NCBI GenBank assembly: GCA_016840825.1
Contig: JAEORN010000212.1
Coordinates: forward strand, 8,399-72,398
Direction: 5' to 3'
Length of the DNA: 64,000 bases
Source of the DNA: Candidatus Thorarchaeota archaeon
Lineage (GTDB): Archaea > Asgardarchaeota > Thorarchaeia > Thorarchaeales > Thorarchaeaceae
The notes beneath the pieces were generated by a model that saw only the letters and a list, made by a program, of their open reading frames with translations, made no database searches and was not told where the DNA came from. This document shows, one piece after another, positions 4,878 through 39,855 of this stretch (its first letter is position 1; each line of letters starts with the position of its first letter). Both the position numbers and the translations under genes were made by a program.

Positions 4878-5582
4878 TTAAATCCCTAATTCAGAGAATA
4901 ACTCAAAGCAAATCTCAGGCACGTCAGTAATGATTCCATCTACACCCATTTTAATCAATTCGGAAATCATCTCTTTATCATTCGGAGTCCATGGATATAC
5001 TTTCAGACCTTCTGCATGGGCATCTTCAACAATACTTGGTTCAAGAGTGAAGAAAAGGGGATTAATCGCATCCGCTTTCAAATCCTTAGCATACTTTGTC
5101 ACATTTTCGATTGGCATAGAATATAGGATTCCTGTCGTTGCGTATGGTTCTAAATCACGAATCTTGACAAGATAGTCATGTTTGAAAGAGGAAAATAAAA
5201 TATCATCAAGCATTCCTCTATCTCTGATTAATTGAAGAACATGTTGTTCGATATTTGCAGCCTTGAGTTCTATATCAACCATCACCTTTCCTTTCGCTAA
5301 ATCAAGTACCTGATCAAGTTCAGGTATCTTTATTCCTTTACTAAGACCAATTTCTAGAATTTCTTCGAATGGTATTTCTGAAAGTAATCTGTCATCACCA
5401 ACTAGTGATTTGAAATCGTCATCATGAAAGATGATAAGATGTCCATCTGAGCTTACTTGAACATCCAGCTCTATCATATCTACATTTGAAGCAATTGCAG
5501 CCTCAAATGATGCAAGTGTATTTTCCATCGCTACCCTTGGTGCTCCTCTATGTCCAATAACAAGTGGCCTATTCAGACGCAT
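4878..5582 (-). CDS. Glycerophosphodiester phosphodiesterase
   Basis: GDPD-family enzyme of 234 residues with a metal-dependent TIM barrel, splitting glycerophosphodiesters into an alcohol and glycerol phosphate. Visible signatures are GHRGAP near residue 10, ENTLASFEAA, the metal-binding ELDVQ, the catalytic IIFHDDD, a central MVDIELK and the C-terminal GVDGIITDVPE. No signal peptide, so it is probably cytoplasmic and acts on phospholipid breakdown products. GGGAGGAG sits directly against the ATG, unusually tight, so initiation a few codons downstream is possible. It lies 20 bases after a small membrane protein gene on the same strand. Confidence 0.92.
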   Translation of the reverse strand: MRLNRPLVIGHRGAPRVAMENTLASFEAAIASNVDMIELDVQVSSDGHLIIFHDDDFKSLVGDDRLLSEIPFEEILEIGLSKGIKIPELDQVLDLAKGKVMVDIELKAANIEQHVLQLIRDRGMLDDILFSSFKHDYLVKIRDLEPYATTGILYSMPIENVTKYAKDLKADAINPLFFTLEPSIVEDAHAEGLKVYPWTPNDKEMISELIKMGVDGIITDVPEICFELFSELGI

Positions 5583-35271: not shown

Positions 35272-35943
35272 ATGAGGGTAAGACTAGTAATTATCTTTGC
35301 ACTAGCAATGATGCTCCTAGGAACATCATTCAGTGCTGCGGCAAATACACAGAATCTATCCTGGGGTCTTTCAGTTGGAGACAGAATTGATTATGTTCTT
35401 TCTGTAGACGCAGGTGATTCTGCAGCAGTCTCATGGGAGAATGGCGTCTATAATCTATATGTCATCGTAAATCAGCTTAGGGAAATTCCGACCACTGCGA
35501 CCTCAATGATGGATGTGACATTGTCACAATTCTATGTTACAGTGTATTTCACAAACGGGACGACATTCCCAACGAGTCTCACATGGATAGCAGTCCCTAT
35601 TGGTAATTGGACATTATTGACCACACTTTTGAACAGCTCTACCCCACTCACCGGCGAGGTTACCTTTATTGATACTGCAACGGAATGGGGCTATGACTAT
35701 GTTGTCGATTATGGATTGGTAGTTCAAACCACCATCTTTCGTATTCTGAAGGACGATGGAGCACTCAACCGATATGAGATTCGTAGTGTTGATGACAACC
35801 CTGCTGCAAATGCGGTAGTTTCTATCTATAGACCGGGACCTCTGAATCTCCCAGTTGACAGCTCATTGGTTCTACCAATTGCGATTGGCGCTGGAGTTAT
35901 CATAATCGCACTGGTGATTATTGTCATCAAGGGAAGGAAATGA
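35272..35943 (+). CDS. Tandem-family protein 2: secreted, C-terminally anchored
   Basis: 223 residues. Signal peptide LVIIFALAMMLLGTSFSAA, family opening NTQNLSWGLSVGDRIDYVL, central WIAVPIGNWTLLTT, FIDTATEWGYDY, and a terminal segment (LVLPIAIGAGVIIIALVIIV) followed by KGRK. Compared with protein 1, the TATEWG stretch is closer to proteins 3 and 4. Its own TATA box and ribosome site suggest independent expression. Function unknown; an envelope protein is likely. Confidence 0.75.
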   Translation: MRVRLVIIFALAMMLLGTSFSAAANTQNLSWGLSVGDRIDYVLSVDAGDSAAVSWENGVYNLYVIVNQLREIPTTATSMMDVTLSQFYVTVYFTNGTTFPTSLTWIAVPIGNWTLLTTLLNSSTPLTGEVTFIDTATEWGYDYVVDYGLVVQTTIFRILKDDGALNRYEIRSVDDNPAANAVVSIYRPGPLNLPVDSSLVLPIAIGAGVIIIALVIIVIKGRK

Positions 35944-36028
35944 GCTGGTGAAAAGCTAGCTCGCTCATTCCATTTATAGGGAGGTTCATCTCGAAAAAGA
36001 TGAAAACTATTTTGATTGAGGGAGTAAC

Positions 36029-36694
36029 ATGAAGAAGAAACTCATTCTTTGCGGATTCTTATTGTCACTGATATTAACACCAACTTTTGCAAGTGCTGCA
36101 AATTCTCAGAATTTGTCATGGGGCTTTGCGGTAGGAAATAGGTTCGATTATACCCTAACAGTCGAGGCAAATGAAAACGCTACACCAGTCTATAGGCCAG
36201 GCACATATGAGTTGTATTTTGTTGTAGAGGTGCTTCGGGAAATTCCAGAAACTGTGACTTCGATTTATGATACACTAATGTCACAATCAGGTACCAGTCA
36301 ATACTTTAGTAACGGCACCGAGCTACCGTATCCAGTTGAATGGATTGCCTACCCAATTGGCAATTGGACGTTGATGAGAGAACTTCTGGAGATTGTTGCA
36401 GAACCCTATGAAGATGTTACATTTATCGATACTGCAACAGAATGGGGACATGAATGGACACAAGTCGCTGGCCCTTCCAGTGTGACGTATACGGTTCGAC
36501 TCTCCAAGGGAGACGGAGCTTTGACATTCTATAATCGGGTATACGAGTATGATACCATAGCCTATAATTCAAGGGTGGAATTGGTTCGAAAGGGTGGAGA
36601 TATCCTTCCTGTGAATGATCTAATTCTGCCAATTGCTGTCGTAGCTGTAGGAATCATAGTGGTACTCGCTGTGATTTTCTTGAAGAAAAGATAA
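36029..36694 (+). CDS. Tandem-family protein 3: secreted, C-terminally anchored
   Basis: 221 residues: signal peptide (LILCGFLLSLILTPTFASA), opening NSQNLSWGFAVGNRFDYTL, WIAYPIGNWTLMRE, FIDTATEWGHEW, and the anchor LILPIAVVAVGIIVVLAVI with KKR end. GGGAG precedes the ATG at five bases. The spacer to gene 2 is only 85 bases with a weak TATA candidate (CATTTATAGG near 35971), so read-through from gene 2 is possible. It is followed by a terminator hairpin. Confidence 0.75.
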   Translation: MKKKLILCGFLLSLILTPTFASAANSQNLSWGFAVGNRFDYTLTVEANENATPVYRPGTYELYFVVEVLREIPETVTSIYDTLMSQSGTSQYFSNGTELPYPVEWIAYPIGNWTLMRELLEIVAEPYEDVTFIDTATEWGHEWTQVAGPSSVTYTVRLSKGDGALTFYNRVYEYDTIAYNSRVELVRKGGDILPVNDLILPIAVVAVGIIVVLAVIFLKKR

Positions 36695-36698
36695 GAGA

Positions 36699-36725
36699 GA
36701 GGGTACACCCTCATCTCCTCTTTTT
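36699..36725 (+). terminator. Terminator after tandem-family gene 3
   Basis: GAGGGT, centre AC, ACCCTC directly after the stop codon, followed by CTCCTCTTTTT. The rest of the gap to gene 4 (to 36980) is AT-rich and shows no gene; I see no strong TATA box in it. Confidence 0.55.
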
Positions 36726-36980
36726 ATATTGACTTATTGTACATGTGTCAAAAAACTCATAAATTGGCTAATCTAGAAAGAATCAATTATTCTCTTCTCT
36801 TGTTCTTCTGAGCAGGAACGAGTTCTGTTTGAGTACAGTTTAACCACGAAGATTTACCATTTTGTTGCTGACAAGAAAAGATTGTTTTAGGAATCATTCA
36901 AATCGTCAAGTATCTAAAACTTATCCAAAGGAAGTTGATAGAGAATATCTAGCATATCCCCATTCGAATGGTGTTGAATA

Positions 36981-37658
36981 ATGAGGGGTAGATTGCCGAT
37001 TCTTTTCCTGTTAGTGACCCTCCTCTTTTTGGGAGTAAATGTAAGCGCAGCAAATACACAAGGTCTTTCTTGGGGTGTATTAGTTGGTGATCGAATCGAT
37101 TACACATTGAGCGTCTATTCTGAAGGATATGAAACAACATACTTGACCAACGGTACTTTTGATTGCTATGTAACGATAAAGTCACTTCCAGACATCCCTG
37201 CCACCGTTAATACAATCCCAAATTTGCAGCCACAGAATTACAATCAGTCGTTCCTGAATGGAACAGAGTATGCTTTCGCATGGATTGCTGTTCCTATAGG
37301 AAATTGGACTCTATTTACGGAGATACTAGAACAATCCATGACGAGTTTTGATAATGTGACCTTCATTGATACTGCAACGGAATGGGGCTATGATGCTTTT
37401 CTGAGATTTTTATCCTCTAACCTGACTCAAATATTGCGTGTATCAAAGTCTGATGGTGCAATGAATTACCTTAGGCATGTGCAATCTTGGACTTCAGGAA
37501 TATCATATTATAGGACGGAAATGATAAGGAAAGGCTTGCTAGGTCCTTGGAGTGTCCCTCAGACAATCTCAATCGTCATCACAGTGGCAAGTATTGGAAT
37601 TATTGTTAACTTTGGTGTAATGATTATTCGACAGAAATCAAGAACAAGCTTCAGCTGA
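36981..37658 (+). CDS. Tandem-family protein 4: secreted, divergent C-terminus
   Basis: 225 residues with signal peptide (ILFLLVTLLFLGVNVSA), opening NTQGLSWGVLVGDRIDYTL, WIAVPIGNWTLFTE and FIDTATEWGYDAF. The C-terminal part differs from the other three: the conserved LPxD element before the anchor is replaced by GLLGPWSVPQTIS, and the protein ends QKSRTSFS instead of a short KRR-type tail. The ribosome site is weak (GGTG). It is the last and most diverged copy, directly upstream of the tbp promoter. Confidence 0.72.
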   Translation: MRGRLPILFLLVTLLFLGVNVSAANTQGLSWGVLVGDRIDYTLSVYSEGYETTYLTNGTFDCYVTIKSLPDIPATVNTIPNLQPQNYNQSFLNGTEYAFAWIAVPIGNWTLFTEILEQSMTSFDNVTFIDTATEWGYDAFLRFLSSNLTQILRVSKSDGAMNYLRHVQSWTSGISYYRTEMIRKGLLGPWSVPQTISIVITVASIGIIVNFGVMIIRQKSRTSFS

Positions 37659-37707
37659 CCTAAGGAATGAAGATTCTCTGTTTAGCTCCTAATGACTTAT
37701 TGCACAG

Positions 37708-37760
37708 CTTTATAAGGGCCCCCTTTATAAGCCCCCTTTATAAGCAAGTCCCTTATAAAT
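37708..37760 (+). promoter_or_regulatory. Array of four TATA boxes upstream of tbp
   Basis: CTTTATAAG occurs at 37708-37716, 37723-37731 and 37736-37744, and CTTATAAAT at 37752-37760. The middle two are within a perfect tandem 13-mer, CCCCCTTTATAAG (37719-37731 and 37732-37744). One TATA box would suffice for a promoter. Spacing between units is 13-16 bp. The last box would start transcription almost at the ATG (leaderless); upstream boxes would include the AGAGGAG ribosome site. Because the gene encodes the protein that binds TATA boxes, autoregulation is a natural reading. Confidence 0.7.
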
Positions 37761-37779
37761 AGAGGAGATTCGTTATACC

Positions 37780-38364
37780 ATGCCCAGACCGCAACCAAAG
37801 ACAAAGATCGAGAATGTAGTCGCTTCAGTTATCCTAAACCAGAGGCTTGACTTGGACGAGATTGCTGCCACCATGCCGAACGTCGAGTTCGACCCTGAGC
37901 AATTCCCGGGTCTTGTCTATAGGCTCAAGAAACCGAAGACTGCCACCCTGATCTTCAACTCGGGCAAGATGGTCTGCACTGGCGCTAAGAGTGAGAAGGA
38001 GGCAAAGCGTGCAGTCCACCGAATTGTTAAGAACATAAAAGAGGCAGGAATTGAGATAACTGGCAAACCCATCATTGTAGTTCAGAATATTGTTGCCAGC
38101 GCTAGCCTAGGTGCAGAGCTCAACTTGGAGCTTGCAGCAATGAAGCTTGAAAATACGCTCTATGAACCAGAGCAGTTCCCAGGTCTTATCTACCGAATGA
38201 GAGACCCTAAGGTTGTTATTCTTCTATTCGGTTCTGGTAAGCTTGTTATCACTGGTGCGAAGTTCGAACCTCAGATTGATGAAGCAGCAGAGAAGGTTAT
38301 GGACAGACTCCTTGAATTAGGAGTCATGCGAGTACCTGAAGGCGAAGACTGGGATATCGATTAG
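37780..38364 (+). CDS. tbp: TATA-binding protein
   Basis: Archaeal general transcription factor that binds promoter TATA boxes and recruits TFB and RNA polymerase. Two direct repeats of about 85 residues: repeat 1 (residues about 8-92) with FPGLVYRLKKPK and IFNSGKMVCTGAKS; repeat 2 (about 98-182) with FPGLIYRMRDPK and LFGSGKLVITGAKF. The phenylalanines that intercalate in DNA and the saddle's beta strands are conserved in both. Short acidic C-terminus (EGEDWDID). 194 residues, normal length. Codon use looks more GC-rich than its neighbours, as in highly expressed genes. Preceded by a TATA array, followed by a terminator. Confidence 0.97.
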   Translation: MPRPQPKTKIENVVASVILNQRLDLDEIAATMPNVEFDPEQFPGLVYRLKKPKTATLIFNSGKMVCTGAKSEKEAKRAVHRIVKNIKEAGIEITGKPIIVVQNIVASASLGAELNLELAAMKLENTLYEPEQFPGLIYRMRDPKVVILLFGSGKLVITGAKFEPQIDEAAEKVMDRLLELGVMRVPEGEDWDID

Positions 38365-38382
38365 GCATTATACGATGCATGA

Positions 38383-38419
38383 ACCCCAGTCCAAATCTGG
38401 GGTCATCTTTTCTTTTTTT
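38383..38419 (+). terminator. Terminator after tbp
   Basis: ACCCCAG, seven-base loop, CTGGGGT, then CATCTTTTCTTTTTTTA. A clear intrinsic-type hairpin with T-tract. Confidence 0.7.
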
Positions 38420-38550: not shown

Positions 38551-39855
38551 ATGCAATATCTACCCATTGAATTCGTCTTAGAATCATCTGCAATCTTCTC
38601 AGGGGTAATATTTGCATTAGTTTCACTTTTTGGAATCTACTATTATTCTACTGATATCCAATACAGAAGATGGGCTATTACGCATCTGGCATTCTGGATA
38701 GCATTCCTTCCGCCAAATATCTTCATAGGTCTACCCTACGCAGGGGATTTCGTTAGTATGCTGCTAAGAGTATTTGCATGCATACTCTTACTCAGAGCAT
38801 TCAACTTTAGGAGATTGTCAAAACTCTCCAATCATATTACCCATCCAGCCACTTTCTTAGGAATTTCGATGTTCTGGATTGTTGTTGTAACATCCTCCCT
38901 CCCCTCAAATGTATCAGCCATTCCAACATGTACACTAATGGCGATGACTTTCTTTTATGTCTCCAAAGAGATACTTTGTAATAGAAAAGATAGGAGTAAG
39001 ATATGGCTATCAGCGGGAGTTTCATATCTCCTGTGGGGTCTTGCTAGCATTCCGATGATATTCTTCCCTATCTTCCCTGAGCTAATTATCGCTGGATATG
39101 TTCAGTTCATAGGACAAGCTTTGGTCATGATTACCATGTTCCTTTCCTTCATAGGCAGCACTCGAAGACGTGTTCAAGAGAATCTCAGGTTGACGACAGT
39201 CCTTTCCAGTCTCATATCACACGACCTTCGGAATTATCTAAATGTCACACAAGGAGCAATTCAGTTGGTTGAAGGAAATGATGAAGAATCTCGCGAAATG
39301 CTTCAAACTGCAATGAGATCCTTAGACTCAGCGTCAGATTTCATCAACCGTGTGAGAAGTGTATGGATAGATTTGGGGGCCCAAATAATCCACATCGATG
39401 ATTTCGATATATGTGAAATCATAAGAGAGGTGACGAATCGTGCAATTAAAGAACATTCACTGAAAGAAGGTCAGATCATAATTGATTGTGAATGTAAGTC
39501 CTATGTAAGCACCACTCCATTAATTTCTCAAGTAATATGGAATATTATTGATAACTCAATTCGTCATTCACGCACCGAACCAGAAATTTCAATATCAGCA
39601 TATTCTTCATCATCAATTGACCTTGTAATCATGGACAGAAGTGGAGGCCTTTCACCTCAAATCAAGAAGGCGCTTCTCACGAAGGAAGAGTCCAAGAATG
39701 GTTATGGATTGGGACTCATGCTAATCAGGGAAATTACTGACATTTTTAGCATTCCAATCGATGTCATTGATAGAGTTGAGGGACAAGATGTTGTTGGCTC
39801 AATATTCAAATTATCACTCCCCCACTCGGGGGGAGTTCCAGTCAGCAAGAGCTAA
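38551..39855 (+). CDS. Membrane sensor histidine kinase
   Basis: 434 residues. The first 210 contain about six to seven hydrophobic segments forming a membrane sensor domain with little external loop. The H-box SHDLRNYLN has the phosphoacceptor at His224. The ATP-binding domain has the N-box QVIWNIIDNSIRHS, the D-box VIMDRSGG and the G-box GYGLGLMLIREI. Thus all catalytic motifs are present. No response regulator lies nearby, so it is an orphan kinase; the partner must be elsewhere. What is sensed is unknown; the all-membrane sensor suggests a lipid-phase or membrane-state signal. Possibly single-gene transcript. Confidence 0.88.
   Translation: MQYLPIEFVLESSAIFSGVIFALVSLFGIYYYSTDIQYRRWAITHLAFWIAFLPPNIFIGLPYAGDFVSMLLRVFACILLLRAFNFRRLSKLSNHITHPATFLGISMFWIVVVTSSLPSNVSAIPTCTLMAMTFFYVSKEILCNRKDRSKIWLSAGVSYLLWGLASIPMIFFPIFPELIIAGYVQFIGQALVMITMFLSFIGSTRRRVQENLRLTTVLSSLISHDLRNYLNVTQGAIQLVEGNDEESREMLQTAMRSLDSASDFINRVRSVWIDLGAQIIHIDDFDICEIIREVTNRAIKEHSLKEGQIIIDCECKSYVSTTPLISQVIWNIIDNSIRHSRTEPEISISAYSSSSIDLVIMDRSGGLSPQIKKALLTKEESKNGYGLGLMLIREITDIFSIPIDVIDRVEGQDVVGSIFKLSLPHSGGVPVSKS

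Follow-up and report, generated by a model that had tools for sequence, protein, structure and literature searches.

The window analysed here is a stretch of 64,000 nucleotides that includes a tbp gene (coordinates 37780..38364, plus strand) encoding a TATA-binding protein (TBP) of 194 aa. The gene product matched PF00352 (E value 2.8e-63), and its closest PDB match was 1mp9_A (E value 2.2e-64), itself a TATA-binding protein. The kin of the gene are Thorarchaeota, and the FPGL and F-SGK motifs, which we take to be the carriers of the DNA-intercalating phenylalanines, are kept in both repeats of the protein. A hairpin (CCCCAG-CTGGGG) followed by a T-rich run (38384..38419, plus strand), found by sequence reading with the stem located by script, probably serves as a terminator 3' of tbp, and tbp is therefore probably monocistronic; the next listed plus-strand ORF begins at 38551. 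The ORF upstream of tbp (36981-37658, plus strand) is co-directional. Three tandem ORFs of 221-225 aa, mutually similar in a FIDTATEWGY-type stretch, occupy positions 35272-37658 just 5' of tbp, and a Pfam search with them returned no match.

A scripted coordinate check placed four TATA boxes ahead of the tbp start codon (ATG at 37780). Box 1 (37708..37716, plus strand; CTTTATAAG) is the probable core TATA box, with columns that do not vary across 22 aligned regions and a conserved 5' flank, TTGCACAGC (37700..37708, plus strand), which is of the TTGCTCAC type, sits at the position of a BRE and was aligned over 32 of 34 orthologous regions. Boxes 2 (37723..37731) and 3 (37736..37744), both CTTTATAAG on the plus strand, are held by the two copies of a perfect tandem 13-mer, CCCCCTTTATAAG (37719..37744, as 37719-37731 and 37732-37744, plus strand; script check). 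Box 2 has nearly invariant columns and is a TBP-type site in the expected melting region, and hence a putative operator, while box 3 is a lineage-specific extra copy, an insertion relative to most relatives with a similar one only in locus L003. The proximal box 4 (37752..37760; CTTATAAAT) is inverted by sequence, because the minus strand reads TTTATAAG; its TATA columns are invariant and it lies over the start-site and ribosome-site region, making it a further candidate operator. It is followed by a Shine-Dalgarno-like AGAGGAG (37761..37767, plus strand; script check). The A/T-rich TATA-type octamer of an archaeal core promoter is thus present upstream of tbp in four boxes, and the description in the earlier note of a tandem array with two boxes inside a perfect 13-mer is accurate.

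Two definitions of a box were used. The strict box, an A/T run of 6-10 nucleotides holding TWTAWA, was adopted after the fact, when the loose definition had failed to single out tbp in the AT-rich genome G015; the loose definition underlies the counts for orthologues, control genes, tfb, the 115-bp shuffles and non-Thorarchaeota. The window contains 35 strict boxes, and no 60-bp stretch outside the array holds more than one, while by the loose definition one further place (59682) reaches three. The total of the word TTTATAAG in the window is ordinary (5 vs 2.9 expected; 16 of 100 shuffles reach 5), and four of the five fall within 53 bp at tbp. Of 2000 dinucleotide shuffles of the 115-bp tbp upstream region, 5 produced at least four boxes. 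The 36 tbp rows together hold 119 boxes, where shuffling gave 29.9 on average and at most 43 (300 shuffles).

The tbp cluster was the densest by the strict definition in 800 kb of genome G001 (4 boxes vs 2 elsewhere), where no other place exceeded two boxes by either definition. It was also the densest in 400 kb of G015 and in 160 kb of G123 (3 vs 2 elsewhere in each), and in G088 another place equalled tbp at three strict boxes. Of 40 loci, 33 had their densest cluster in the tbp region, 4 had an equally dense one elsewhere and 3 a denser one (strict definition). The array of L003 is the closest in likeness to that of the window, and in the genome that carries it (G002, 3.5 Mb) TTATAA pairs 5-11 bp apart were found at three overlapping places, all in the tbp promoter. 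Such pairs occur in 28 of the 47 genomes of the class and lie just upstream of tbp in 9, the remaining sites being at other places that include the thi-type array described below. A palindromic double box, CTTATATACTATATAAGG (up to 2 mismatches), was detected in 16 of the 47 genomes, at tbp in all 16, and at three other places. In one part of G001 (G001:C1:1225001-1625000; loci L082-L101), 160 of 198 upstream regions carry no TATA box even by the loose definition. As TATA boxes are rare upstream of ordinary G001 genes, tbp may be among the highest-affinity TBP targets in that genome.

A genome scan returned 51 loci, mostly Thorarchaeota tbp, from which an orthologous set of 34 distinct upstream regions (at least 90% identity) was drawn. 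Three to five boxes were present in 31 of the 34, with three boxes in 15, four in 11 and five in 5; L012 and L021 have two each and L025 has one. The 36-row set includes the downstream tandem copies of L028 and L029, both excluded from the 34. In these two loci, from two Thorarchaeota genomes, tbp is duplicated in tandem ~50 bp apart, and the second copy is without its own array (zero boxes). For tbp copies of lower identity, the count was four boxes at the first copy in L028, two at the first copy in L029, none in L030, and two or three in each of the seven rows of an 81%-identity group. None of eight divergent Thorarchaeota tbp paralogues (65-71% identity) has three boxes, each having none or one. 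At least three boxes were present in 5 of 410 other upstream regions, sampled as controls from the window, from related loci and from part of G001, and one of the five belongs to a divergent neighbour in L008 and reads the tbp region backwards; Fisher tests of tbp against control genes ignore kinship.

Retention of the array by relatives, on which the earlier note had made its case depend, is therefore borne out by the 31 of 34 orthologous regions with 3-5 boxes. By sequence, these 31 regions carry sites for the gene's own product beyond the one needed, as expected of an autoregulatory cluster, and a conserved and nearly gene-specific cluster of TBP-type sites at Thorarchaeota tbp is well supported. 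The box words vary among relatives yet remain TATA-like. In a column alignment of 22 of the 34 regions, chosen by hand, the non-coding columns without any variation belong to the distal and proximal boxes, and nearly invariant columns were found within the second box. Read from this alignment, three boxes are ancestral and conserved in position, and the third box of the window is a local duplication of 13 bp, of a kind also seen in L003; other tandem additions were seen in L014, L018 and L038.

Three general causes for such clusters were considered and rejected. A shared divergent promoter does not fit, the upstream neighbour being co-directional in 30 of 41 loci (two of them non-Thorarchaeota; one further locus had no neighbour), and the 11 tbp loci with a divergent neighbour are possible shared promoter regions. 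A general habit of strong promoters was set aside more tentatively, as at most two boxes occur elsewhere in 800 kb of G001, a stretch with only three tRNA genes. A trait of general factor genes was also rejected, as none of 29 full-length tfb genes reached three boxes (of 30 loci, one lacked a full-length ORF; the first ATG was assumed to be the start codon).

The flank of the distal box was aligned in 32 of the 34 regions, with L012 and L025 dropped. Its 5' side has T at -5 in 24 of the 32, C at -4 in 23 and A at -3 in 25, and on the other side G is found at +7 in 21 and at +8 in 27, so that GG follows box 1 in most rows. Most of the 32 regions thus show a TTGCTCAC-type flank, a box TTTAWAAGG and a second box ~13 bp further on. 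The classical BRE is purine-rich, and the conserved tbp flank is not of that type. The TTGCTCAC-type flank nevertheless occupies the BRE position in most of the 32 rows, and it did not emerge as a motif common to Thorarchaeota at large. A conserved flank at this position suggests that the distal box is probably the core TATA box. The composite TCASNTTTAWAAGG had 12 matches in the 47 genomes, 8 of them at tbp, and a reversed control pattern had 16; as the control outnumbers it, the composite shows no overall enrichment, but its matches gather at tbp.

Archaeal TATA boxes lie ~26-28 nt before the transcription start according to the available portions of two papers (PMC8707807; PMC8553660). At this spacing, transcription would start at ~37735-37739 from box 1, at 37750-37754 from box 2, inside AGAGGAG from box 3 and at the ATG from box 4. 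A ribosome-site-like motif is present in 24 of the 36 rows, of which 21 have both a box distant enough for an mRNA carrying the motif and a box too close for it. Two motif rows have close boxes only (L012, L025), and the tandem copy in L029 has the motif without a box. The motif is absent from the other 12 rows, and leadered mRNA is thus unsupported in those. The conserved flank of box 1 together with the ribosome site favours box 1 (or box 2) as the productive box, with the others as presumptive operators. With the distal box as core TATA box, box 4 seems more likely to block transcription than to give rise to the leaderless transcript that the earlier note had named as one option.

The conserved cluster of 3-5 boxes before tbp in an Asgard group suggests, from the sequence comparisons, that TBP may throttle its own production. 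We estimate at about 0.52 the probability that the TBP sites clustered in the tbp promoter act as a sensor of free TBP, i.e. negative autoregulation by a general transcription factor. Box 1, with the flank at the BRE position, would act as the core TATA box and give a leadered mRNA with AGAGGAG, and boxes 2, 3 and 4 would extend over the melting region and across the start site to the ribosome-site region. An excess of TBP over TFB and RNA polymerase would fill the inner boxes with unproductively bound TBP, which would exclude or road-block a complex on box 1. At 13-15 bp apart, the sites appear too tightly spaced to accommodate two full TBP-TFB-polymerase complexes, and a productive complex should therefore be excluded once the inner boxes are occupied. 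The gene would accordingly be active while TBP is scarce and silenced once TBP outnumbers TFB. For such words TBP is the single factor expected as binder, and we infer TBP occupancy, the direction of regulation and the choice of productive box. Against this reading stand the three orthologues with fewer than three boxes and the shortfall in L029 and L030, the rows lacking a ribosome-site-like motif, the flank unlike the classical BRE, the loose-definition result in G015, the tie in G088 and the 35 of 51 other Asgard rows with at most two boxes; extra TATA boxes could equally add promoters. The direct autoregulation that the earlier note had put forward is partly supported: retention in 31 of 34 regions, near-specificity for tbp, words that vary but remain TATA-like and boxes placed over the expected start and ribosome site fit feedback by TBP, with TBP binding and repression as its presumed part.

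The boxes could instead be alternative productive promoters that increase or stabilise tbp expression, or allow a change from leadered to leaderless transcripts and back, with no repression, a reading to which we give a minor share. Every box is plausible as a TATA box, the spacing of box 4 fits a start at or near the ATG (26-28 nt in the portions available of PMC8707807 and PMC8553660), and proximal boxes lie at -30 to -41 in group A relatives. However, proximal boxes also range from -16.5 to -33, many of them too near the ATG for transcription to begin at or upstream of it. That no other place in 800 kb of G001 exceeds two strict boxes, and that a conserved flank is seen at the distal box, the one box with its flanks tallied, also speaks against multiple productive promoters.

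Somewhat less probable again is that the array is the operator of a dedicated repressor that reads TTTATAAGG-like words and is not TBP. The GG after box 1 in most rows (G in 21 of 32 at +7 and in 27 of 32 at +8) would fit such a protein, as would the placement of 8 of the 12 matches of composite TCASNTTTAWAAGG at tbp. A separate repressor is plausible because a TATA-like array adjoins an HTH-ThiN gene in these genomes. In loci L105-L112 (e.g. L105:2806-2834), TTATAAC..TTATAA..TTATAA lies between a gene for a solute-binding protein and one for an HTH-ThiN regulator, presumably a thiamine regulator of the ThiR type. This gene setting was found in 8 of the 11 regions read (domains checked in two), and the triple array is probably the operator of the adjacent regulator. 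Like the tbp array it consists of three TATA-like repeats close together in the same Thorarchaeota genomes, but its words are near-fixed and 11-12 bp apart, whereas the tbp boxes vary in word and spacing yet remain TATA-like. The tbp array as an operator of this thi type was rejected on the GGG/CCC flanks, the different spacing and the different genes. Furthermore, tbp arrays in other phyla carry other flanks, which, like the varying words and spacing at tbp, speaks against a dedicated repressor.

That the array arose by chance, or by neutral growth of repeats in an AT-rich spacer, is very improbable, for although the tandem 13-mer shows boxes arising by slippage, box positions are conserved where spacers otherwise align poorly, and the contrast of 31 of 34 tbp regions with 5 of 410 other genes (Fisher test, kinship ignored) disfavours it. 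Equally improbable is a hairpin formed by the repeats in the mRNA leader: the fold of 37700-37780 is slightly better than that of shuffled sequences, with a weak z of -1.68 (13 of 200 shuffles as good), and the leader itself (37750-37800) is unremarkable (z -0.39).

A phylum search gave a tbp match in 139 of 148 genomes. The sample of Asgard archaea other than Thorarchaeota comprised 51 rows from 70 loci read, which include paralogues and were assigned by score only; at least three boxes were present in 16 of the 51 rows, at least four in 10 and at most two in 35. Among the 20 rows with a GC content of at least 0.40, seven have at least three boxes and five at least four. The clearest arrays in this sample are those of Hermodarchaeota (L048, L049), together with those of similar loci. 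In Thermoproteota, 21 of 50 tbp rows have at least three boxes, and at a GC content of at least 0.48 the count was 13 of 29 versus 10 of 200 other genes from four genomes of such GC content (Fisher p 7e-8, kinship ignored), the tbp genes of those four genomes having 2, 3, 3 and 3. Twin boxes end 5-7 nt ahead of the ATG in three Thermoproteota loci (L248, L254 and L280). Chance boxes are commoner in AT-rich genomes, and in G123 at least three boxes were found at 8 of 78 genes, tbp among them. Similar tbp arrays thus appear, on sequence grounds, to recur patchily in other Asgard groups and in Thermoproteota. In Thermofilaceae, a short GC-rich insertion interrupts the PEQFPG region of tbp (L046, ~5113-5145; L047, ~1677-1709) and could be an archaeal mRNA intron.

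A pattern search located a leader element in 16 of 30 Thorarchaeota tfb loci (L199:2422-2531 on the minus strand, L201:738-847, L205:746-855 and 13 further loci), laid out as GGGTYCCGGGAGACTGTC ... CTGRCGGTC ... CCGGTTCC followed by GGAGGAG and folding into a hairpin. Both partners change in 5 of the 13 pairs of this hairpin, and 94% of cells pair, compared with at most 50% in a slid-alignment control. An Rfam search of five element-bearing loci gave no match, and the hairpin is perhaps an RNA-level control of tfb. A wider scheme, which we offer tentatively and consider unlikely to hold in full, is that a TATA-box cluster on tbp acts as a sensor of the TBP:TFB ratio and gives archaea TBP homeostasis. 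Such a sensor would be kept in Thorarchaeota, with other layouts in other Asgard groups and Thermoproteota, and Thorarchaeota would pair it with the structured tfb RNA leader, each factor having its own feedback.

To our knowledge, the setting of general transcription factor levels has been little studied in archaea. The level of TBP matters in that nearly every promoter needs this general factor. Turning a general factor's own site into an operator is a simple design, here proposed for relatives of eukaryotes, and it invites comparison with eukaryotic TBP genes. Lrp-like and MDR1-type archaeal regulators repress their own promoters near the core elements. Their operators lie over or beside the core so that the basal machinery is blocked, as proposed for the tbp array, except that at tbp the role of repressor would fall to TBP, a general factor, and that of operator to TATA boxes. 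Within the open-access literature, with subscription papers and preprints outside this scope, no account of tbp genes with such an array of TATA boxes was found, and nothing on tbp promoter control was found in the available parts of PMC12993045 and PMC2121645.

Halovirus promoters of the HF2 type are described, in the part available of PMC8707807, as having several TATA boxes derived from a repeat motif, with only one box rightly spaced; as at tbp, an archaeal promoter region thus holds several TATA boxes, though the gene is not tbp. The Acanthamoeba TBP gene likewise has a dedicated promoter circuit with both activation and repression, in which the factor TPBF binds an upstream element and there is a single TATA box (available sections of PMC11965365), whereas Thorarchaeota tbp has a TATA-box array and no known extra factor. 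A model of TBP autoregulation in eukaryotes, in which the TBP promoter is called TATA-less (available sections of PMC2928763), has the TBP level set by TBP acting on its own gene, as proposed here. That model involves positive feedback, whereas the array in Thorarchaeota suggests added negative feedback.
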